A stretch of 64,000 bases of DNA from Sphingobacteriaceae bacterium. GTDB lineage: Bacteria; Bacteroidota; Bacteroidia; B-17B0; Aurantibacillaceae. The translations under genes were made by a program, and so were the position numbers. This document shows positions 3,315 to 16,467 of the stretch, piece after piece. Position 1 is the stretch's first letter, and the number at the start of each line of letters is the position of its first letter. The stretch is taken from positions 5,518,001-5,582,000 of the forward strand of contig NVQB01000001.1 in NCBI GenBank assembly GCA_002319075.1. Direction: 5' to 3'. Below the pieces are notes generated by a model, which had not been told where the DNA came from, did not search any database, and saw only the letters and a list, made by a program, of their open reading frames with translations.

Positions 3315-6300
3315 ATGACAGGACAAGAGGTTATAGAATTAATTGGATTAGACAGAGCTAAATCTATAAATTCTAAGAGTAAAAAACTCTTAGAAAGCGA
3401 GTCTATTGTATTTGATCATGTTCGTGAATTTGGAGTTGATTCGGTTTATTTTAACACAGATGAAAACGGAAATAGTTTTCCTGCCGTATTTTTAAAAAAG
3501 GTAAAAAGTTTTGACGTGGAAACATTGCAAGTAATAGCTGATACCCACAGAAAAATATGGAATTATAAAAAAGTACTATTCTTATATGTTTATTCCGAAA
3601 TAGAAATTCGTATATATAATTGTTCTGAAAAACCTCTTATTAAAACCCAAGAGAATTTTGATTATCAAAAAGAACTTCAAAGCATCGAAATAGAAAGTTA
3701 TTCTTTTTCAGACAAAAAACAACTTGAAGAACTCAATAAACTTTTTTCAAGAATAGCCATTGATTCCGGAGTTATTTGGACATTAGAAGAAGCTCAATTT
3801 ATTAGAGATAAAATAAATTTACAACGTAGAGTTGATAAATACTTAGTAGAAAGCTTAGTTAACACTGCCCAACAACTAGAACAGGAAGGTCTAAAAGTTG
3901 ATTTTATTCATAAAATCATTCTTCGTTCCCTTTTCTTATTGTATCTTGAAGATAGAGGAGCTACGGACCATAAATTGTACTCTCAAATTAAAAAAGGGAC
4001 AAAATCTTATTTTGATATTTTAGACGATACGAAGTCTACATACCTGTTATTCGACCGCTTGGAAGAAGATTTTAATGGGAACGTTTTTACTTTAGAAAAG
4101 GGAGAAAAAATATCTGCAGAACAACTTCAACTAATAAAAAAATGTTTCATAAGTGGTAATGATAACACACCTCAATCAAAATTGTTTGAAGAATGGAGAT
4201 TGTTTGATTTCAGTATTATACAAATTGAGTTGTTAAGTGAAATTTACGAAAACTTTTTATTCAAAACCGATCCTGATTTAAAGAAAAAAACAGGAACATA
4301 TTATACGCCTCCTGCACTGGTAGAATTTATATTAAATGAGAAGTTACCGATTAGAAAAAATGAAAAAAACTATAATATAAAAGTATTAGACCCAAGTTGT
4401 GGTTCTGGAATTTTTTTAGTTGAAAGTTTCAACCGTTTGGTAAAACGTTATGAAAACCAGCACAAGGAGAAGCTAACGGATTTTGATAGGTTAAATAAAT
4501 TATTAACTGATAATATTTTCGGTATTGAACTACACCCTCAAGCTATAAAAGTAGCGGCATTTAGCTTATACTTGGCATTAGTTGATAAATTAGATCCTAA
4601 AAATTTATGGCAAAAGAAAAAACATCGTTTGCCTAATCTTATCAATAATCCTAATGATAAATCATTAAAAGCACAAGGCAAAAATCTATTTTGTAGAGAT
4701 ACCATTCTGCAAAATATAGAAATTGAAAATATTGAATTCAATTTGGTAGTTGGTAATCCGCCATTTGGAACAACTGATTTATCAAAATCAGTCATTAAAT
4801 ATTGTGAGAAATATGGTTTTGCCAAAGAAATGGTTCTACCATTTCTTCACAAAGCGACAAATTTTGCACCAAATGGCGAGATAGCTTTGATCTTTAATAC
4901 TAAAGTTTTGACGAACACAGGTGGAACATATCAAAATTTTAGGAAGTGGCTGTTTCAAGAATGTTATGTAGATAAAATATATAACTTTTCCATTCTTCGG
5001 AATGCAAAGAAAAATTTTGGAGGACAATTATTTGGCGATGCGACAGGTCCGATAAGTATTCTATTCTATCAAAAAGAACAACCAAAAAATCCAAAAGATA
5101 AAATTGCATACTATGCTCCAAAAACATTTATTAAATCCAATATAATTGATGGATTAAGTATTGACTTTTCAGATTTAAAATTTCTGCCTAGAAATGAATG
5201 TGAGAAGCCTGATACCAATATCTGGAAAATTGCAATGTGGGGGGGAATGAATGATTGGGATTTAATACAAAGGCTGAATAAAGAATTCACTTCAATTAAT
5301 AGCTTTTTAAAAAACGAAAATATTGATTATGGTGTAGGTTATCAACTGGGTAATCCTAGAAATATTGAAAATTTAGAAATCAAAAAATTACCAATTCACA
5401 CTCCTAATAATATATTAAAATATTATACTCCGAAACCTACCCAAAGAATAAACATAGATAAATTCCATAGATTAGGTAAACTTGAAGCGTATCAAAACCC
5501 ACATATATTACTAAACGAAGGCATTAAAGTTGATAATGGCAAGTTGACTTTGTTAGCTTCTTTTGTTGATTATAAAAGTGCTTATTCAAAAGGTATAGTT
5601 GGTATTTACTCAAAAAAAGGCGATACAAATCTGTTAAAATTATTGACGGTTTATTTGAATTCTGATTTCATCCGGTATTATTCGTTCTTAATGACATCTA
5701 GTTGGGGAATCGAAAGAGATGTAGTTAAACATAAGGAATTATTTGAAGTTCCTTTTTTATTGGAACAACTGGATGAAAAACAGAAAAAACACATTATCAA
5801 ACTGTTTGATGAGGATCTTTATAATAAAGAATTTCAGACAATCAACAAGTCAATAGAAAATCAAATAAACGACATAATCTTAAACTGTTTGCTACAAAAT
5901 GAAAAGTTTATTGTGCAACATTTGCTGGACAATATTGAACTATTTCACAAACAAGAAAAATCAACTGCTCTATATCCTTTACTCCAACAGCAAACGCAAG
6001 AATACGGAAAAATCATTAGTTCTGAACTCAATGATTTCCTTAATGGCCAGGATTTATTTGCAAATCCTACAGTTTATAACATTAGCAGACTTTCACCCTT
6101 GATCATTATAAAACTTTCTTTTGATAAAAAACAAAAAGAAATTATTACTTCAAATGAGTTTGTTGAAGATGAGCTAAAAAAAATAGATCAACATTTATGG
6201 GAGGAAAAATCAAGTAATATCTATTTTAGAAAAAAACTAAATTATAAAACAGAAAACGACATTTATATTATTCGACCGAATCAGCGTAGATTTTGGTCGA

Positions 6301-6359
6301 AGTCAATGGCATTGGAAGATGCTTCAGAATTAATTCTAGAAATCTTAAACAGGAATTAA
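3315..6359 (+). CDS. Eco57I-like N6-adenine DNA methyltransferase (type II RM)
   Basis: The 1014-residue protein contains a gamma-class N6-adenine methyltransferase core. The AdoMet motif I, LDPSCGSG, lies at about 358-365 and the catalytic NPPF at 481-484. An N-terminal arm of about 330 residues precedes the core, with KTGTYYTPPALVEFIL (motif X) just ahead of it. The segment after 600 looks like a target-recognition domain (HxxLGKLEAYQNPHILLNEG). I see no clear PD-(D/E)XK in the N-terminal arm, unlike one-chain type IIG enzymes. The nuclease is probably the next gene, 2 bases downstream. The role would be to methylate host sites while the partner cuts unmethylated DNA. Codon use is AT-rich compared with the right half of the window. 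Confidence 0.85.
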   Translation: MTGQEVIELIGLDRAKSINSKSKKLLESESIVFDHVREFGVDSVYFNTDENGNSFPAVFLKKVKSFDVETLQVIADTHRKIWNYKKVLFLYVYSEIEIRIYNCSEKPLIKTQENFDYQKELQSIEIESYSFSDKKQLEELNKLFSRIAIDSGVIWTLEEAQFIRDKINLQRRVDKYLVESLVNTAQQLEQEGLKVDFIHKIILRSLFLLYLEDRGATDHKLYSQIKKGTKSYFDILDDTKSTYLLFDRLEEDFNGNVFTLEKGEKISAEQLQLIKKCFISGNDNTPQSKLFEEWRLFDFSIIQIELLSEIYENFLFKTDPDLKKKTGTYYTPPALVEFILNEKLPIRKNEKNYNIKVLDPSCGSGIFLVESFNRLVKRYENQHKEKLTDFDRLNKLLTDNIFGIELHPQAIKVAAFSLYLALVDKLDPKNLWQKKKHRLPNLINNPNDKSLKAQGKNLFCRDTILQNIEIENIEFNLVVGNPPFGTTDLSKSVIKYCEKYGFAKEMVLPFLHKATNFAPNGEIALIFNTKVLTNTGGTYQNFRKWLFQECYVDKIYNFSILRNAKKNFGGQLFGDATGPISILFYQKEQPKNPKDKIAYYAPKTFIKSNIIDGLSIDFSDLKFLPRNECEKPDTNIWKIAMWGGMNDWDLIQRLNKEFTSINSFLKNENIDYGVGYQLGNPRNIENLEIKKLPIHTPNNILKYYTPKPTQRINIDKFHRLGKLEAYQNPHILLNEGIKVDNGKLTLLASFVDYKSAYSKGIVGIYSKKGDTNLLKLLTVYLNSDFIRYYSFLMTSSWGIERDVVKHKELFEVPFLLEQLDEKQKKHIIKLFDEDLYNKEFQTINKSIENQINDIILNCLLQNEKFIVQHLLDNIELFHKQEKSTALYPLLQQQTQEYGKIISSELNDFLNGQDLFANPTVYNISRLSPLIIIKLSFDKKQKEIITSNEFVEDELKKIDQHLWEEKSSNIYFRKKLNYKTENDIYIIRPNQRRFWSKSMALEDASELILEILNRN

Positions 6360-6361
6360 GG

Positions 6362-6976
6362 ATGGCATTGAATACTACTATTTACGAAAAATTCAGGAAT
6401 GCTTTTGAGCATAAATGTTGTCAGCTAATAGTTGATGCGTATCAAACTTCAATAGTAGAGAAAGTTATAAAACTAGACTGGAATGAAAACGATATTTCTT
6501 CCGAATTACACCAGCATATAAAAAAAAATCCACAAAGACTGAAGTGGAAAGTTTCAACCAATGTAGAAGCTGATATTCCTAAAAACATTCCGAAAGAGAA
6601 AGGGTTTTCTGATAAATTTCCAAGGATAGATTTTAGACTGACTTCGTTTGTATCAACTTATGAGTTTGAATATTTCTTTGAAGCTAAAAATCTGAAACAA
6701 AACGATTCAGGATTAAAACGTAGATATATTGATACAGGAATTAACAACTTCGTCTCCAAAAAATACGAAAATGGTAGTTTGATCGGATATCTTCTGGAAG
6801 GCCAAACCAATGACGCGATAAACGGTATTAACTCATTATTAAAAAAAGACAAAAGAAATACGGAAACATTAATTTTGAAATCGAATAAGCTAATAAAAAC
6901 CTATTACGAATCTAACCATTCTGACATTGGAGTATTGAAACACTTAATTTTTGATTTTACAAATATCTCCAGTTAA
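6362..6976 (+). CDS. PD-(D/E)XK nuclease, partner of the methyltransferase
   Basis: This 204-residue protein has the core of a restriction-type nuclease: IDFRL with D90, then FEYFFEAKNL with E107-A-K109, separated by a hydrophobic strand. An N-terminal helical part (1-60) and a C-terminal helical part follow no family I know. I start at ATG 6362, which follows the methyltransferase stop by 2 bases, rather than the longer frame from 6293 that runs back into that gene. The tight spacing argues for translational coupling. I read it as the cutting subunit of a two-gene restriction-modification system; the site cut cannot be read. Confidence 0.7.
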   Translation: MALNTTIYEKFRNAFEHKCCQLIVDAYQTSIVEKVIKLDWNENDISSELHQHIKKNPQRLKWKVSTNVEADIPKNIPKEKGFSDKFPRIDFRLTSFVSTYEFEYFFEAKNLKQNDSGLKRRYIDTGINNFVSKKYENGSLIGYLLEGQTNDAINGINSLLKKDKRNTETLILKSNKLIKTYYESNHSDIGVLKHLIFDFTNISS

Positions 6977-7267: not shown

Positions 7268-7380
7268 CGGCAACTGGGTACTAACAGCACGCGTAGCGCC
7301 ATTTTTGCGCATTAGCGCCTAAATGCATAACTTGGACTTAGCAAAAACGGACGCCAGCGTGCCATCCGTTAGTACCAATT
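7268..7380 (+). repeat. attC-like recombination site 3
   Basis: Outer boxes are TAAC at 7282-7285 and GTTA at 7368-7371. Outside them GGCAACTGGGTAC faces GTACCAATTGCC. Inside, GCACGCGTAGCGCC and TTTTTGC face GCAAAAA and GACGCCAGCGTGC with bulges. It is the shortest site (about 105 bases) and lacks the shared loop segment of sites 1, 4 and 5. The joint is at 7368/7369. Confidence 0.6.
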
Positions 7381-9887: not shown

Positions 9888-10120
9888 AGCAGCACATTTC
9901 ACAAGCACATTTGGCGCTTCTATCCAAGGAAAATATTTTTGTGGCGCCAAATAAGCTTGCAAAATTTCCTCCCCGCCTGTGTGGACATTAGAACGGGCAA
10001 TTTTCCAAATTGCATACCTATCGCACAAAAAATTAAAAGTTCGGACGTAAAAAATTGGGTTGACACTTCTAAAAATTTATCGGCGGACGCGTGACCAGAA
10101 GTTAAACTGTGTGGCGGCAA
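9888..10120 (+). repeat. Cassette-end module A, copy 2 (gene-free)
   Basis: This copy is close to 7041-7267. It has the long hairpin at 9896-9965 (ATTTCACAAGCACATTTGGC arm against GCCAAATAAGCTTGCAAAAT), GCAATTT / AAATTGC at 9997-10013 followed by CTATCGC, and GACCAGAAGTTAAACTGTGT at the right end. Together with the flanking attC-like site and 10249-10589 it fills an 800-base stretch without a convincing gene. Confidence 0.75.
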
Positions 10121-10250
10121 CAAGGTACTAACAGCATGCAAATGCCTCATGCCGGGTTCTTTTTATTTTAAAATCTCAGCGGACATCCGTACATTTATAA
10201 CATTGCGGAAGCCGGCACGAAGGCATGCATGCAATACGTTATGTTCAATG
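10121..10250 (+). repeat. attC-like recombination site 4
   Basis: Outer boxes are TAAC at 10129-10132 and GTTA at 10238-10241. Inside, GCATGC-AAATGCC faces GGCATGCATGC, and TGCCGG faces CCGGCA. The loop carries the segment shared with sites 1 and 5 (GCGGACATCCGTACATTTAT). Its left flank (GGTAC) belongs to the GTTAGTACC type and its right flank (GTTATGTTC) to another, as expected if cassettes of two lineages meet here. The joint is at 10238/10239. Confidence 0.6.
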
Positions 10251-10589: not shown

Positions 10590-13229
10590 TCAACTCTTTT
10601 TTATAATAACGTCGTACTTTTTATGTTCAGCCTTAAAAGCTTTAATAATTCCAGTTATTTCATCACCGAGTTTATAAACATCATCAAAATCAGCTGGTAA
10701 TTTACTACTGTGAATATAACCCGCTACTGGAGAGCCAGGAATTTCAACGAATACACCGTACGATTGAATATTTACTATTTTCATTTTATGCTCGCTACCT
10801 TTCTCTAGTTCCAAGTGCTCTTTACTTATAAAATTTGATCCAAAGTCTTCCAATTCTTTAATTGCAGCGCCAAAATTCATCGGTACACTATTATCCTTGT
10901 CAGCAATTATATCGTAGTTGAAAGCAAAATGATCCTGAAAGTATGTGTCCAAATATTTAATGAGTAATTCCGAATGGCGCAGGCTGTTTTGTATTGCTAA
11001 ATGTGAGAAATGACCAACACCCGCCATGTTATTTCCAATTTCCTCAGCAACTGAAACTGTTTTGTACCAAACGTTTTCTGAACAACTTGACAAATAATCT
11101 ATATTCTTTAATAAATCCAAATGAATTATTCCTGAGGTTGAAATAGATACCAAATCGTCAAGATTTACTTTAGTTGTGTCTTGGGATTCGCTTAATATCA
11201 GAGTATTTCGGATCAAAAATAAAAGTTCTTCTTCGATTCTATAGTCTGCGTGGCCATGTGAACTCAAAGTCTGTAGAATAAAAGATGTTTTATGAAAACC
11301 TAAAATTCCCCCTGATCCTTTAGAGTTTTTCAGGTCATTTAATAATTTAAGTATTGCTAATCTAACAAACGGATCCGGTAAATCATCAGAAGGGTCTGAA
11401 TGAAACAAGTTTTTAACGCGTGAATTAGCGTCAGAATAATATACCAAATTACCCCGTAAAAAAACGCGACTTATAATATGATTTGGAATGCGGAATTCTC
11501 CTTTAGTTTGCTTCATTTTTAGTATTTCCTTATCCGTAATATGGCCGCTTTTGCAAAAATCTAAAAATATTTCAATTCCCCTTCTTATATCCCTTCCAGC
11601 CAGACCAGAAATTAATCTCTTAAAAAAATTACTTTGAAATAGGGAAGTAAGAATGCTTTTCAAATAATGAAGTTCATCCGAAGATGGGTAACTAACTTTA
11701 AAACCATTAGAAAGTGTATAAAATTTTTCAGGTGATTTCTCAGCTAGACGGTTTGCATATTTTATTCTACTGTAAATTACCTTTTCAAGTGAAGGAGGAT
11801 TAATACGGAAAATTAAATCTTTAATAACTGTGTCAAGCGGTTTCTCATTTCTATAGTGGTCAAAGGTTGTATCACGAATTGGCAAGAAAACAATGGCTTT
11901 AATGTTATCCTTAATCCAATTGGCAACTTCGAACATCAAAAGCTGCTCCTCTAAATTTCTTTTATCGCAGTTATCTAAAACAATAATTAGTTCCTTACCG
12001 GCATCATGAACAACTTTTCTTATAAAACAGTTTAGAGTGAGATCAATATCAGCTTGAAATTCCAAAATTCTTTCAACTAGAAGACTTTTGTATTTTTCGC
12101 TTTCAGGATCTAGTAATTTTAATGCTCCTTTTTTTACAGATGCTATTTCTTGCTCGTATAATTGCTCAATAAATTCAAGACTATCGTAATCGGCTTTGAT
12201 AGCTGATTTTATTTGCTTAATTAAATTTTGTTTTATCCAGCGATAAATTTCGCTTGCCGTCACGGGAGCATCATTTAAATTCAGGTTTACCCAAAAAGTA
12301 CGGGCGGTAATACTAGCATCCAACGCTACTTCACGTAAATATGTTAGAAAAGTTGATTTCCCAGAACCCACGCTTCCAATTAATAATAAAACTTGGTTAT
12401 TATAATTTTGAGCATTTTCAAGTTTTTTTAAAATTTCGCGAGGTTTAACTTGGTCCTCAATCTCTACAGACGTTTCATTAAGAGGTTTAACTTTTTTGCG
12501 GATTAATTTATCTATGGGCTGCACGTGTGACTCATGCTTTGATACATGCACATAAGCATTTTTAACTATATCTCTCCGCTCAGTCTCTTCATTTGGATTA
12601 AATAGATGTCTGTATTGAATTGAAATAGATTCACCGAATGTATTTCTGGTATTTTGATTCTGAATATGCTTTCCACCTAATAGATTTAGTGGATTCTTAA
12701 ATGCGACATCTGTTCTAATTGACTTGCGAAAATCACTTGCGAATTTATTTAGTTTGCTTTGAGTAAAACAGGATATAAATGAGGAAAAATGAATCTCCGT
12801 TGCTATCCAATTTTTAACTTCAATTTCGAACTCAGGTTTGTCGGAATCCCAAGTGCCTGCAAGAAGTCGGATTCCATCACACGCTAAGACTAACTCGCAT
12901 GGGTTTTGTTTAGAAGGAAATAACCTATTAATTTCTCCAGCGTATAAGCTAGCTTGTCTAAAAGCCTCCTGTAAGTCTTCCTTAGGTTTTTTTGCCTCTA
13001 TCACGACTACTGGAACGCCCCTTATATTCAAGACAAAATCTGGGTAATATAACTGTGCTTTATCTCCCTTTCCTATTAATAATTTTCTTAAACTTTGCTT
13101 TGTTTGAATTTGAGTATTATTAAAACCTAAACCTAATGGTTCCGGATTAGTAACAAGGGGCAAAATCACTTTCATTTCAACGTCACTCTCAGTGACTAGT
13201 TGTTTTGAATCTAGAATATATTCACTCAT
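10590..13229 (-). CDS. HsdR-N nuclease / P-loop NTPase / S1 fusion, likely defence protein
   Basis: The 879-residue protein has three recognisable parts. Residues about 20-140 match the HsdR N-terminal nuclease fold: YYPDFVLNI with D64, then VVIEAKKP with E78 and K80. About 275-600 is a P-loop NTPase of the STAND/KAP sort, with Walker A GSVGSGKST at 285-293, Walker B LIIVLDNCD at 414-422, and a winged-helix-like region behind it. About 806-879 is an S1 RNA-binding domain (VNIQSYGVFVEIPG, GYIHSSKL, GDEITGIIKAF). A nuclease, an NTPase switch and an RNA-binding end in one chain suggest a sensor-effector triggered by RNA or a translation-related ligand; that is inference. The gene runs against the array and lies 32 bases behind the small gene at 13262. 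Confidence 0.75.
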   Translation of the reverse strand: MSEYILDSKQLVTESDVEMKVILPLVTNPEPLGLGFNNTQIQTKQSLRKLLIGKGDKAQLYYPDFVLNIRGVPVVVIEAKKPKEDLQEAFRQASLYAGEINRLFPSKQNPCELVLACDGIRLLAGTWDSDKPEFEIEVKNWIATEIHFSSFISCFTQSKLNKFASDFRKSIRTDVAFKNPLNLLGGKHIQNQNTRNTFGESISIQYRHLFNPNEETERRDIVKNAYVHVSKHESHVQPIDKLIRKKVKPLNETSVEIEDQVKPREILKKLENAQNYNNQVLLLIGSVGSGKSTFLTYLREVALDASITARTFWVNLNLNDAPVTASEIYRWIKQNLIKQIKSAIKADYDSLEFIEQLYEQEIASVKKGALKLLDPESEKYKSLLVERILEFQADIDLTLNCFIRKVVHDAGKELIIVLDNCDKRNLEEQLLMFEVANWIKDNIKAIVFLPIRDTTFDHYRNEKPLDTVIKDLIFRINPPSLEKVIYSRIKYANRLAEKSPEKFYTLSNGFKVSYPSSDELHYLKSILTSLFQSNFFKRLISGLAGRDIRRGIEIFLDFCKSGHITDKEILKMKQTKGEFRIPNHIISRVFLRGNLVYYSDANSRVKNLFHSDPSDDLPDPFVRLAILKLLNDLKNSKGSGGILGFHKTSFILQTLSSHGHADYRIEEELLFLIRNTLILSESQDTTKVNLDDLVSISTSGIIHLDLLKNIDYLSSCSENVWYKTVSVAEEIGNNMAGVGHFSHLAIQNSLRHSELLIKYLDTYFQDHFAFNYDIIADKDNSVPMNFGAAIKELEDFGSNFISKEHLELEKGSEHKMKIVNIQSYGVFVEIPGSPVAGYIHSSKLPADFDDVYKLGDEITGIIKAFKAEHKKYDVIIKKS

Positions 13230-13934: not shown

Positions 13935-13997
13935 ACCATTACCCGCTGACCTGGGTGTATCGACCTAAACCCGTCAACCATACTCGTTGACCTGTGT
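13935..13997 (+). repeat. Direct repeat D, left copy
   Basis: About 63 bases containing GACCTGGGTGTATCGACC, TAAACCCGT and CTCGTTGACCTGTGT recur at 14352-14417 with few changes, flanking the 14031-14339 gene. Inside each copy TGACCTG-[GT]-GTGT occurs twice. Confidence 0.85.
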
Positions 13998-14030
13998 ATA
14001 ATGCGTAAGAAAATTTCTAAAAAATAAAAT

Positions 14031-14339
14031 ATGAAAAATAAATGGAAATTGAGTTTCTGGATTCTTATGGTCATATTTATATCCACGACAACTTTTCTTG
14101 TTTATCAAATAGTTGACCAAGCCGTCACGTTAACCTACTTGCGCGACAGCGATGATGGAACAGAATCAGATTTAAAAGAACTTTCGCAAATTATAAAGGG
14201 AAAACTTGATTTTCACGACTTCAAGCAAATATCGGATCGATACCCCGACTTAACAGACTCCACTTATCTTGGTATGCATAATCTAAAGATCACATTTGGA
14301 CCAGACTTGAAAATAACTTCTATAACAACGCAATGGTAA
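14031..14339 (+). CDS. Single-pass membrane protein, Imm58-like
   Basis: This 102-residue protein has a basic start, one transmembrane helix (WKLSFWILMVIFISTTTFLVYQI), then 'VDQAVTLTYLRDSDDGTESDLKELSQIIKG' and a small soluble domain outside the membrane. The helix followed by '[IV]VDQ[AG]VTxTY' resembles proteins grouped as immunity protein 58 of polymorphic toxin systems. I am not certain of that family name. No toxin gene is beside it. It is framed by two copies of a 63-base direct repeat, so it may have arrived or duplicated as one small unit. Confidence 0.5.
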   Translation: MKNKWKLSFWILMVIFISTTTFLVYQIVDQAVTLTYLRDSDDGTESDLKELSQIIKGKLDFHDFKQISDRYPDLTDSTYLGMHNLKITFGPDLKITSITTQW

Positions 14340-14351
14340 CACAACTCAAAA

Positions 14352-14417
14352 TTACCAATAACCGTTGACCTGGGTGTATCGACCTAAACCCGTTACCCAT
14401 TACTCGTTGACCTGTGT
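14352..14417 (+). repeat. Direct repeat D, right copy
   Basis: This is the second copy of the element at 13935-13997. It keeps GTTGACCTGGGTGTATCGAC, the CTAAACCCGTTACCC segment and TACTCGTTGACCTGTGT. The two copies are about 355 bases apart and head in the same direction. Confidence 0.85.
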
Positions 14418-14429
14418 GAAAGCCAGCCC

Positions 14430-14680
14430 GCATTTTACAAGTACATTTGGCGTTTTCTTTTACTGGCAAATAATTTTTTGTGCGCCAAATAAACTTGTAA
14501 AATCTCCAACAGCCTAAACCCCTATTAGGACGGGCGCTTTTCCAAAGCGCTTTCCTATCGCTCGCAAAAAAATAAACCAGTGCATTTTAAAATCCCCTAG
14601 ACAAGTATTCCGTTCGACATCGTTTCAAAACAAATTTTCGGAACAGTTTCTCGTGGACATCCGGACATACTGTGTAGGGC
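14430..14680 (+). repeat. Cassette-end module A, copy 3 (gene-free, diverged)
   Basis: The long hairpin at 14432-14503 keeps the family core (AAGTACATTTGGCG against CGCCAAATAAACTT). GCGCTTT / AAAGCGC at 14534-14550 followed by CTATCGC replaces the GCAATTT / AAATTGC arms of copies 1 and 2 on both sides. The right part (14565-14680) has drifted from the other copies. No gene is seen. Confidence 0.7.
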
Positions 14681-14800
14681 GCACTAAACATAACAGCAAG
14701 CGTAGCGTTATGCCGGGCATCTTTTTATTTTAATATATCGGCGGACATTTGTACTTTTATAAAAATGCGGACGCCGGCACGAACGCCAGCTTGCGGTCCG
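14681..14800 (+). repeat. attC-like recombination site 5, split by the IS110 element
   Basis: TAAC lies at 14691-14694. GCAAGCGTAGCG faces CGCCAGCTTGC, TGCCGG faces GCCGGCA, and the shared loop segment (GCGGACATTTGTACTTTTAT) is present. The site runs to GGTCCG at 14800 and should continue GTTA; instead the IS begins. The missing right box, GTTACC, is found at 16060-16065, immediately behind the IS. Confidence 0.6.
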
Positions 14801-14804
14801 ATAT

Positions 14805-15833
14805 CTATGATAATTCCAAATTAATTTTGGAATAGTTTTCCTGATAAGGAGTTCCTCTTTTTACAACAGCCATAACGCGTTTTATTAGTTTATTTCGAAT
14901 GGAGTTAATTACCGTCATTTTGTGTTTTCCTTCCGTTACTTTTCTTTCATAATATTGTTTAATGTCTGGGACGTATCTTAATGCCGATATCGCAGCCATG
15001 TGCAACGTGGATTTAAGGTGCATATTTGCAAAGTTAGACGTGCCGGTTCTACCGCGCACACTTGTTCCGGAGGAATGTTCAAACGGCGCTACTCCGCAGT
15101 AACAAGCTAACTGCCTTACATTTTCCATTCTTGTAAAGGCATTCGTATAGATTAACAATTCTGTCGCCAATACTTTACCCACACACTTAACAGAGGAAAT
15201 AAGACTGTACAATCTTTTTAATTCTTCATCCTGATTTATTAATTCCTCCATTCTGCCCTCAACTTTTTTCTTGCATGTCAGTAAACCTTTAAGGGCAGTT
15301 GAATTTAATTTTTCAAGTTCTTTACCCATACTTAAATCTACAAGTTTTAATTCCTGAATTGAAATACGGATGGATTGGTAAGCTTTTGAAAGTCTTTCGC
15401 GATTACTCAACAGATCTTTAAGCTTTTGAAGTGTTGTACCGCTCAATTTAACTAAAACGGCCCTGTCATTGTTAGTCATTGCATAGCGGGCAATTCTGTA
15501 TGAATCGACTTTGTCGGTTTTACCCCTGGTCATTCCCATACTTCTTTTTAAGTGAAGAGCCGACTCCATCCAAACCTTGCATTGCTTTTGTAATAACTCT
15601 GATATTAACTGCCGCGTATATAATCCTGTATGCTCCAGACAAAACAAACAGCGTTCCACTGTGAAAAAATTCTTGTCTTTAAGCCATTTAAACAGGGTTT
15701 TAAATCCTGAATTATTATTCTCAAACTGGTGATAATCTTGGTATCCAGTTGCTGTAATAACACTGACATCCAGCGTTAGTTTTGAAACGTCGATTCCGAC
15801 ATAACAGTCTTGAATTTGGTCTGTTTTTTTCAT
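14805..15833 (-). CDS. IS110-family transposase (DEDD / serine recombinase)
   Basis: This 342-residue protein has the two IS110 domains. The N-terminal RuvC-like DEDD domain shows YVGIDVSKLTLDV at about 12-24, the second acid in LFCLEHTG, and TDKVDSYRIARYA. The C-terminal Transposase_20 domain shows VGKVLATELLIYTN, LACYCGVAPFEHSSGTSVRG with the candidate catalytic serine, and HLKSTLHMAAISAL. Length is usual for the family. IS110 enzymes work with a bridge RNA from the leader and recombine at a short core without target duplication. The frame is intact and the leader is conserved in structure, so the element may be active. Confidence 0.95.
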   Translation of the reverse strand: MKKTDQIQDCYVGIDVSKLTLDVSVITATGYQDYHQFENNNSGFKTLFKWLKDKNFFTVERCLFCLEHTGLYTRQLISELLQKQCKVWMESALHLKRSMGMTRGKTDKVDSYRIARYAMTNNDRAVLVKLSGTTLQKLKDLLSNRERLSKAYQSIRISIQELKLVDLSMGKELEKLNSTALKGLLTCKKKVEGRMEELINQDEELKRLYSLISSVKCVGKVLATELLIYTNAFTRMENVRQLACYCGVAPFEHSSGTSVRGRTGTSNFANMHLKSTLHMAAISALRYVPDIKQYYERKVTEGKHKMTVINSIRNKLIKRVMAVVKRGTPYQENYSKINLELS

Positions 15834-16059
15834 AGATTTAATTTATGTTTAAATTAACCACGGTTATGATACGTCTCGAAACCTTAATAATAGGCCGCAC
15901 TGCCTTAATATCTATTTGAGGCTTTCATAACCAGAAGACAGGGTCCGCAATCGGACTATAGGCCGTGAACCTTGTTAGCGCATTGGTCGCCCTGTCTTCG
16001 GTTAATTTGATTAATATCATTAAATTTAAATTCAAAATCTTTAGATTACAAGTCTAAAG
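15834..16059 (-). ncRNA. Candidate bridge RNA of the IS110 element
   Basis: Read on the minus strand the leader gives two stem-loops in order. The first (15999-15934) has a 10-bp stem GAAGACAGGG / CCCTGTCTTC; its loop holds GCGCTAAC and then TTGCGGACC, similar to the two sides of the attC-like target. The second (15932-15862) has an 8-bp stem GGTTATGA / TCATAACC; its loop holds ATAGATAT, an exact copy of the last 8 bases of the IS (14801-14808, read on the minus strand). Target loop first, donor loop second, is the order described for IS110 bridge RNAs. The RNA ends are not known. Confidence 0.6.
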
Positions 16060-16119
16060 GTTACCTGCAAGTGGCGGTCGGACTTCCGTTCAAATAAAAA
16101 CGTTCAAATAAAATTTCTC

Positions 16120-16467
16120 ATGGCCCTGGACATAACAAAATCAGTTGACATCATTGAGACGATGGAAAATTATATATCCAAAATTAGACCTGCACAAGAA
16201 ATTAGAAATAAACTTGACTTTGGCTATGAAATCGACGGACAGAGTGTTATTCTCCAGGAAATTCGACCTAATTGGCGGGACCCTAGCGTCATTCAACGGT
16301 CTGGTTATGCCAAGACAACTTTCGTTCAGAAAAAAAATATCTGGAAAGTTTTTTGGTTACGTTCTGACTTGAAATGGTATTCGTACGATCCCAAGCCTAC
16401 GGTTAAAAAACTTACCGACTTTTTAAAACTTGTCGACGAAGATAAACATCATTGTTTTAAAGGCTGA
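16120..16467 (+). CDS. DUF3024 family protein
   Basis: This 115-residue protein reads 'EIDGQSVILQEIRPNWRDPS', 'YAKTTFVQKKNIWKVFWLRSDLKWYSYDP' and 'LKLVDEDKHHCFKG', the full signature of DUF3024 (PF11225). Its function is unknown. DUF3024 proteins turn up repeatedly as single-gene integron cassettes, which agrees with the setting. The unit is about 720 bases, from the joint behind the IS to site 6. The ATG at 16120 is preceded by a tandem CGTTCAAATAAAA. Confidence 0.85.
   Translation: MALDITKSVDIIETMENYISKIRPAQEIRNKLDFGYEIDGQSVILQEIRPNWRDPSVIQRSGYAKTTFVQKKNIWKVFWLRSDLKWYSYDPKPTVKKLTDFLKLVDEDKHHCFKG

Follow-up and report, generated by a model that had tools for sequence, protein, structure and literature searches.

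The locus described here raised the question of how an insertion sequence came to lie inside an attC site, and whether the non-coding leader in front of its transposase gene is an RNA that chooses such sites. The window, i.e. the whole stretch of 64,000 nucleotides that was analysed, carries the IS110-type element at positions 14801-16059 on the minus strand, with CTTTAGACTTG as its left end and TCATAGATAT as its right end. The ends were defined by the left-end and right-end motifs kept in relatives and by the attC halves outside, and a single C at either boundary (16060 and 14800, minus strand) is common to target and donor. The element is present as a single copy in the host genome. Its 342-aa transposase (14805-15833, minus strand), whose stop codon lies inside the right end, matched the NCBIfam model NF033542 (IS110 family RNA-guided transposase) with 164.3 bits at a cut-off of 140, both IS110 domains of Pfam (PF02371 and PF01548) and, in the PDB, IS621 (6e-24, 88.3 bits) and ISCro4 (5.8e-23). 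Residues D15, E67, D107, D110 and S255 were invariant in a nine-row transposase alignment and aligned with D11, E60, D102, D105 and S241 of IS621, as counted by eye with the constant two-residue offset of the PDB chain; the roles of the IS621 residues are those given in the available part of PMC11208158. The protein has the DEDD RuvC domain and the Tnp domain with a conserved serine that mark the IS110 group, and the layout is also that of the group, with 226 nt of non-coding DNA before the start codon and the right end only 4 nt past the stop codon.

The surrounding array was delimited by a palindrome scan, which found four intact attC sites on the plus strand of the window (attC 1, 1446-1564; attC 2, 2014-2191; attC 3, 7278-7375; attC 4, 10125-10245), compared with zero or one in each of ten shuffled windows. 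These sites have R''/R' boxes and imperfect inverted L boxes and are repeated as an array. The element splits a further site on the same strand. The 5' part (14688-14800) consists of R'' (ACATAAC), L'', a variable middle, L' and the spacer GGTCC (14795-14799), with a palindrome score of 23 against a maximum of 19 in 100 shuffles and a partner followed by GTT, and the 3' part (16060-16066) is the R' box GTTACCT at the start of the next cassette (ORF 16120-16467). The possibility that the attC sites were chance palindromes was ruled out by the shuffled windows together with the flank palindrome test given below. The word GTACTAACAGC occurs in three intact attC sites and is absent from the rest of the 5.65-Mb genome; since its backward control word occurs four times, the count of three is no evidence alone, and it is the clustering that is notable. 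With a looser threshold, 12 plus-strand and 11 minus-strand matches were obtained in 184 kb, compared with 3-6 in six one-strand shuffles, and because these matches included the target-binding stem of the leader as well as a tandem repeat close to window position 87,000, only sites of the stricter scan were counted. No match to the integron integrase model TIGR02249 exceeded the cut-off in the host genome, a search for which the 14 control genomes gave no positive control, none of them having a match above the cut-off; four partial matches were located at two other loci of the host genome. The array reads as an attC cluster without its integrase.

Several further features were noted in and around the array. 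Four stretches of 25-85 nt are 78-88% alike between 9895-10242 and 14431-14804, about 4.54-4.56 kb apart, so that the similarity of neighbouring attC sites extends beyond the boxes, and a 22-nt sequence around CGTTGACCTGGGTG occurs four times at 13936-14418 (73-100% identity), in two pairs about 41 nt apart. The cassette behind the split attC (16120-16467) encodes a DUF3024 protein (PF11225) with a full-length match (6.9e-43) to the PADLOC candidate defence family PDC-S43. A type IIG restriction enzyme-methyltransferase (PADLOC 7.1e-53; Eco57I in Pfam) is encoded at 3315-6359 within the array, followed by an ORF (6293-6976) with neither a Pfam nor a PADLOC match. An 879-aa protein (10590-13229, minus strand) with an HSDR_N stretch, a C-terminal S1 domain and weak AAA matches below the cut-off is oriented against the attC direction and is possibly the product of a defence gene.

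Leader fold and putative target guides

The initial annotation had proposed the minus-strand leader as a bridge-RNA candidate. The 226-nt leader was predicted to fold with -59.3 kcal/mol (z = -3.91), and none of 200 shuffles was equally stable. The fold consists of a hairpin, then a target-type stem-loop and then a donor-type stem-loop, and the putative bridge RNA core (closing stem, target-binding loop and donor-binding loop) was placed by the consensus fold at 15853-16006 on the minus strand. In the consensus fold of five close relatives (the window element, here WIN, and L002, L004, L014 and L046), 11 of the 49 pairs had at least one both-side compensatory change each, spread over both stem-loops, within this close clade of five sequences. 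The Rfam search of the window yielded no match.

The target-binding stem-loop (15934-15999, minus strand) has a perfect 10-bp stem, GAAGACAGGG (15999-15990) with CCCTGTCTTC (15943-15934), exactly as the initial annotation had read it, and a 46-nt loop containing GCGCTAAC (15981-15974) and TTGCGGACC. Stems were scanned with loops limited to 41-70 nt (target) and 47-83 nt (donor), and 40 shuffles per leader served as control. The target stem of the window scored 10 against 6.8 in shuffles, with one of the 40 shuffles as high. For 30 leaders the mean was 10.51 compared with 6.68 in shuffles, at most two of 40 shuffles were as high in 22 leaders, and the loop measured 41-54 nt in 29; the stems picked for L033, L041 and L053 were taken as wrong picks. 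The donor-binding stem-loop (15862-15932, minus strand), delimited by the fold and by compensatory pairs in the close clade, has the stem GGTTATGA/TCATAACC, which encloses ATAGATAT. Its mean score in the 30 leaders was 7.33 against 6.56, and at most two of 40 shuffles were as high in only five of them. The target stem is therefore backed family-wide, and backing for the donor stem comes from its guides and from the close clade. The target-binding stem-loop (15931-16001) also scores as an attC-like hairpin between AAC and GTT, which is probably a coincidence.

The putative left target guide is GCGCTAAC (15974-15981, minus strand), assigned by the left-flank permutation test. It has the same sense as the left target, i.e. 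it is the reverse complement of the attC right box GTTAG. The attC right box had already been named as the target of CTAAC in the initial annotation, and this part stands; the occupied box, which had been given as GTTAG, is actually GTTACCT, GTTAG being the right box in three of the four intact sites of the window. The putative right target guide is UAGUCCG (15952-15958, minus strand), assigned by the register shared with relatives and by the right-flank permutation test. Its GUCCG (15952-15956) pairs with CGGAC of the occupied site, where the right flank reads CGGACCG. This register is the same as that of AAAACG/CGTTTT in L002 and L003 and of UCAAACG/CGTTTGA in L014 and L046, and the right guide lies at leader position 101 in WIN as in L002.

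The match between guides and flanks was examined in 27 elements including the window element by seeking the reverse complement of the first 7 flank bases in every leader. Own right flanks matched own leaders at 6.26 of 7 bases, compared with 5.08 for permuted flanks (0 of 20,000 permutations), and when the test was confined to the target-loop region the values were 6.11 and 4.66 (0 of 20,000). The eight attC-targeting elements alone gave 6.12 against 5.27 (1 of 20,000). The own score was 6 or 7 in 23 of the 27 elements, and in 22 no foreign flank was better; the exceptions were WIN, L015, L020 and L037 with 5 of 7, and L007, which was outdone by one foreign flank. In L015 the guide UCAAACG misfits the flank CGGTTTG. 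The best or tied-best match was located 142 to 105 nt upstream of the start codon in 23 of 27 elements, a region chosen after the guide places of close relatives were seen, and outside it in L020, L033, L053 and L054. Excluded from the right-flank test were L003 and L046 (guides as in L002 and L014), L042 and L057 (copies of L036 and L055), L004 (group II intron after the right end), L030 (shortened frame; the right-end motif found belongs elsewhere), and L006, L023, L026, L032, L038, L039, L040 and L048, which had no left-end motif by rule. The right flanks of L021, L027, L028, L031, L035 and L047 were placed by hand, so the right-flank test was not blind.

Left flanks also matched their own leaders (6.10 against 5.05 permuted, 0 of 20,000, 21 elements), in a test which additionally omitted L004, L008, L015, L027, L031, L035, L043 and L054 as rows with a short, missing or badly set flank or as duplicates of another row. 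The best left-flank match was not always at the left guide; for WIN (5 of 7) and L014, for example, it was elsewhere in the leader. Co-variation of guides with flanks, which the initial annotation had raised as a question, was thus found on the left and on the right, with none of 20,000 permutations reaching the observed value on either side.

Elements with the same guide in different sites were also found. L002 and L003 have 99%-identical leaders and occupy two different attC sites, where their right flanks read CGTTTTGCAGC and CGTTTTCGCGC (for L003, the contig end leaves only 4 bases of left flank). These right flanks agree in exactly CGTTTT, which is complementary to the common guide AAAACG, and then differ. 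Close relatives with the same loop in other targets had been expected to speak against guidance, yet this pair favours it. Outside the attC clades, G456 gave five matches, and at four loci with identical leaders in different sites every left flank ended in CACTC and every right flank was CGAACTGACA.

The specificity of the window guides was estimated by a site scan, in which the left and right guides were summed with half weight for G-U pairs at 71,280 sites with a crossover C in 184 kb. Only two sites scored above attC 2 (others tied), which is the best predicted target of the window bridge RNA among the attC sites, 14 scored above attC 3, 88 above attC 1 and likewise above the occupied site, and 562 above attC 4. 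When the right guide of L002 was swapped into the scan, 49, 49, 302 and 302 sites scored above attC 1-4, so that it ranked attC 1 and attC 4 better than the true window guide does. Among six shuffled right guides none was better on attC 2 or attC 3, and one was better on attC 1 (27 sites) and attC 4 (514). The window guide suits the GTACTAAC|GGATTG class of the array, and it is short and not unique. The occupied site fits it moderately: the right flank has 5 of 7 matches in its own leader, tied with two further leader places, and 5 of 26 foreign right flanks fit the window leader better. This mediocre match and the non-unique guide weigh against claims made from the window element alone.

attC-targeting clades and alternative readings

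The target of the relatives was assessed by requiring that the palindrome at the right flank exceed the best of 100 shuffles and have GTT by its partner. This combination was found in eight of nine attC-clade elements and in none of 18 others; L014 had a palindrome of 29 against a null maximum of 28 and lacked the GTT. L046 (too short), L004, L030 and L054 were excluded, and the labels attC_A and attC_B had been assigned by eye ahead of the palindrome test. In a tree of 33 transposases, attC_A (the window element, L002, L003, L004, L014, L046 and L015) had a support of 100/97 and attC_B (L007, L008, L009 and L047) of 100/100. They were not sisters, and the forks between them were weaker. Two separate IS110 clades of 7 and 4 elements thus appear to target attC, the alternative being one origin with losses, and attC as the target of the clade of the window element is well supported. 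The order-level sample of relatives comprised the same 87 genomes as the family-level sample. Sampling the class once more added no further element, and in viral contigs a first search found no relative and a second found one distant relative, L048, which was used for the tree only.

The crossover differs between the clades. In clade A it lies between the right box and the spacer (TAAC|G), and in clade B it follows the spacer, e.g. CGTTTTGC, and there the right guides read the L' box (UAGCUGC with GCAGCTA in L008). The last base before the element was C in 21 of 21 left flanks and the preceding base varied, so that one C may be all that donor and target have in common. In L004, the end of a group II intron (RF00029, 58.6 bits; 3533-3608, minus strand) lies directly at the right end of the element, and two RNA-based mobile elements may have met there at one attC.

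A different reading, which we consider unlikely, is that the folded attC hairpin is recognised or that the transposase reads the attC boxes directly, the RNA matches being by-products. Elements of both attC-targeting clades do occupy palindromic sites, and group IIC introns also favour attC, as this reading would lead one to expect. The same preference is described for IS1111-attC elements in the available part of PMC11187229. However, the guide-flank match was equally strong among the 19 tested elements that lie outside the attC clades (6.32 against 5.11), none of the 18 other elements passed the attC test, and the right guide changes along with the spacer among WIN, L002 and L014. We therefore return to guidance by the leader RNA, in which the target stem, the guide-flank co-variation and attC as the clade target are each supported by comparison.

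Even if a bridge RNA is accepted, the working right guide of the window element might be TTGCGG (15945-15950, minus strand), as the initial annotation had proposed. This segment is a true, perfect 6-nt complement to CCGCAA in the right flank. Nevertheless, it is not next to the crossover, the homologous segment of four relatives keeps only 3-4 of the 6 bases, and by simple arithmetic chance alone would give a 6-mer match of a 46-nt loop to a 12-nt flank in about 7% of cases, whereas GUCCG sits in the register conserved in 23 of 27 elements. TTGCGG is thus very unlikely to be the guide, and the segment that co-varies with the flank is the adjoining UAGUCCG, just 5' of it.

Putative donor guides and the proposed cycle

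The putative left donor guide AUAGAUAU (15908-15915, minus strand) was assigned by comparing right ends with leaders. It is a copy of the right end, the DNA word ATAGATAT (15915-15908) being identical to the last 8 bases of the element before the crossover C (14808-14801). Across 26 elements, own right ends matched own leaders at 7.38 of 8 bases against 6.46 when permuted (0 of 20,000), and an exact 7-nt copy was present in 25, the exception being L047. The identity between the second loop and the element end pointed out in the initial annotation is therefore confirmed and is beyond chance in the family. The putative right donor guide AAGG (15882-15885, minus strand), the complement of CCTT at the left end, was assigned by a leader count; in 25 of 26 leaders it occurs within the last 100 nt, at an expected value of about 0.30.

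The leader thus has the two loops, one matching the target and one the donor, that characterise the IS110 group, with a donor stem that was weak in the family-wide scan. Flank matching, compensatory pairs and donor copies agree with the bridge RNA proposed at the outset. This reading is well supported by comparison, and the leader very probably represents a genuine bridge RNA of the IS110 type. We hold with high confidence that the insertion sequence is of IS110 type with a bridge-RNA leader whose target loop would bind attC and whose donor loop would bind the joined ends. It is scarcely credible that the strongly folded 5' leader is instead a regulatory RNA of the transposase (attenuator or translation control) with no targeting role, since its loops match target flanks and right ends in most relatives tested and its layout is that described for IS621-type bridge RNAs in the available part of PMC11208160.

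Joining of the ends is likely to form a Bacteroidota-type promoter. The right end carries TTTG (14817-14820, minus strand), a -33-like element that would be effective only with joined ends, and the left end carries TAGACTTG (16049-16056, minus strand). The Bacteroidota -7 promoter motif is TAnnTTTG, and we take TAGACTTG to be a -7-like match to it; by this motif the putative promoter elements look Bacteroidota-type, not sigma-70, in contrast to IS621. The joined window ends read TTTG, 20 nt, TAGACTTG, in a row that had no shuffle control. In the junction scan, 17 of 21 rows scored best with a spacing of 20, and the rows averaged 8.81 of 10, compared with 7.60 when right ends were shuffled. The p values of single rows were 0.013-0.33, with 0.73 for L007, and the p of 0.80 for the window row was obtained with a mis-set right end (TTGGAAT inside the gene).

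These features can be arranged in a cycle, for which we infer transcription, a circular form and transposition. The element would excise as a circle, and the right end joined to the left end would build the promoter TTTG-N20-TAGACTTG, from which the leader would be transcribed. The donor loop would then bind the joined ends, AUAGAUAU with the right end and AAGG with the left end, and the target loop would bind both attC strands, where GCGCUAAC would read the right box and UAGUCCG the spacer between the right box and L'. The DEDD/serine recombinase would swap strands right after the single C common to both sites, leaving the element between spacer and right box with its gene oriented against the attC direction. 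Hopping of the element between cassette arrays may fairly be inferred from these matches. We regard it as improbable that the element is active in the cassette traffic of this array without a recognisable integrase, in such a way that the guide tracks the spacer class of the host and copies could excise, invert or move cassettes. If true, RNA-guided recombination between successive attC copies would be a second, RNA-programmed route of cassette shuffling.

Relation to known systems

Tetu and Holmes (2008) and Post and Hall (2009) are said to be references on the IS1111-attC group. Bridge or seek RNAs have been described in both IS110 and IS1111 types, according to the available parts of PMC11187229, PMC11208160 and PMC11208158. 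As far as the accessible text of PMC11208160 and PMC11208158 goes, IS621 resembles the window element in transposase family and catalytic residues, in a long left end that carries the bridge RNA upstream of the gene, with the target loop followed by the donor loop, in a left guide on the bottom strand and a right guide on the top strand, in a promoter expected at the joined ends and in a crossover 3' of the core. However, the core of IS621 is CT, whereas the window set may share one C only (clade A attC targets end in AAC, the right end in ATC), and IS621 targets REP elements, whereas the window clade appears to target attC. Short ATA/TAT sub-terminal repeats around the donor are also described for IS110-group donors in the part of PMC11208160 consulted. 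ISEc21, an IS110-type element with a seekRNA, shares the upstream non-coding RNA, the guide order and the circle-junction promoter that is predicted for the window element, but it targets a conserved stretch of certain IS3-family transposase genes and not attC (PMC11187229, available part).

Among the open-literature papers listed, none reported, as judged by title and beginning of abstract, an IS110-type element with upstream RNA on attC, or such an element in Bacteroidota. The mechanism is a known one, and an IS110-type element with an upstream RNA on attC would be a new variation. If two separate Bacteroidota clades enter attC at two different places, attC would be a convergence point of RNA-guided elements. 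The pair L002/L003, the guides of WIN, L002 and L014 and the shifted register of clade B may serve as natural guide-target pairs for bridge-RNA reprogramming, and they bear on whether a single shared C can replace a two-base core.

The closest precedent for the target is the IS1111-attC group. In the accessible part of PMC11187229, the IS1111-type elements ISKpn4, ISPst6 and ISPa25 are described as targeting one end of attC, which is chosen by an RNA of the non-coding region with two short target matches. The window element is likewise inserted in attC, but in the IS1111-attC group the RNA is downstream of the gene with the reverse guide order, and in the window element, in which only 4 nt of right end come after the stop codon, the RNA is upstream and the guides are in IS110 order. 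Thus, attC targeting, known from the IS1111 type, appears here in an IS110-type element with the RNA at the opposite end and the guides in the opposite order.
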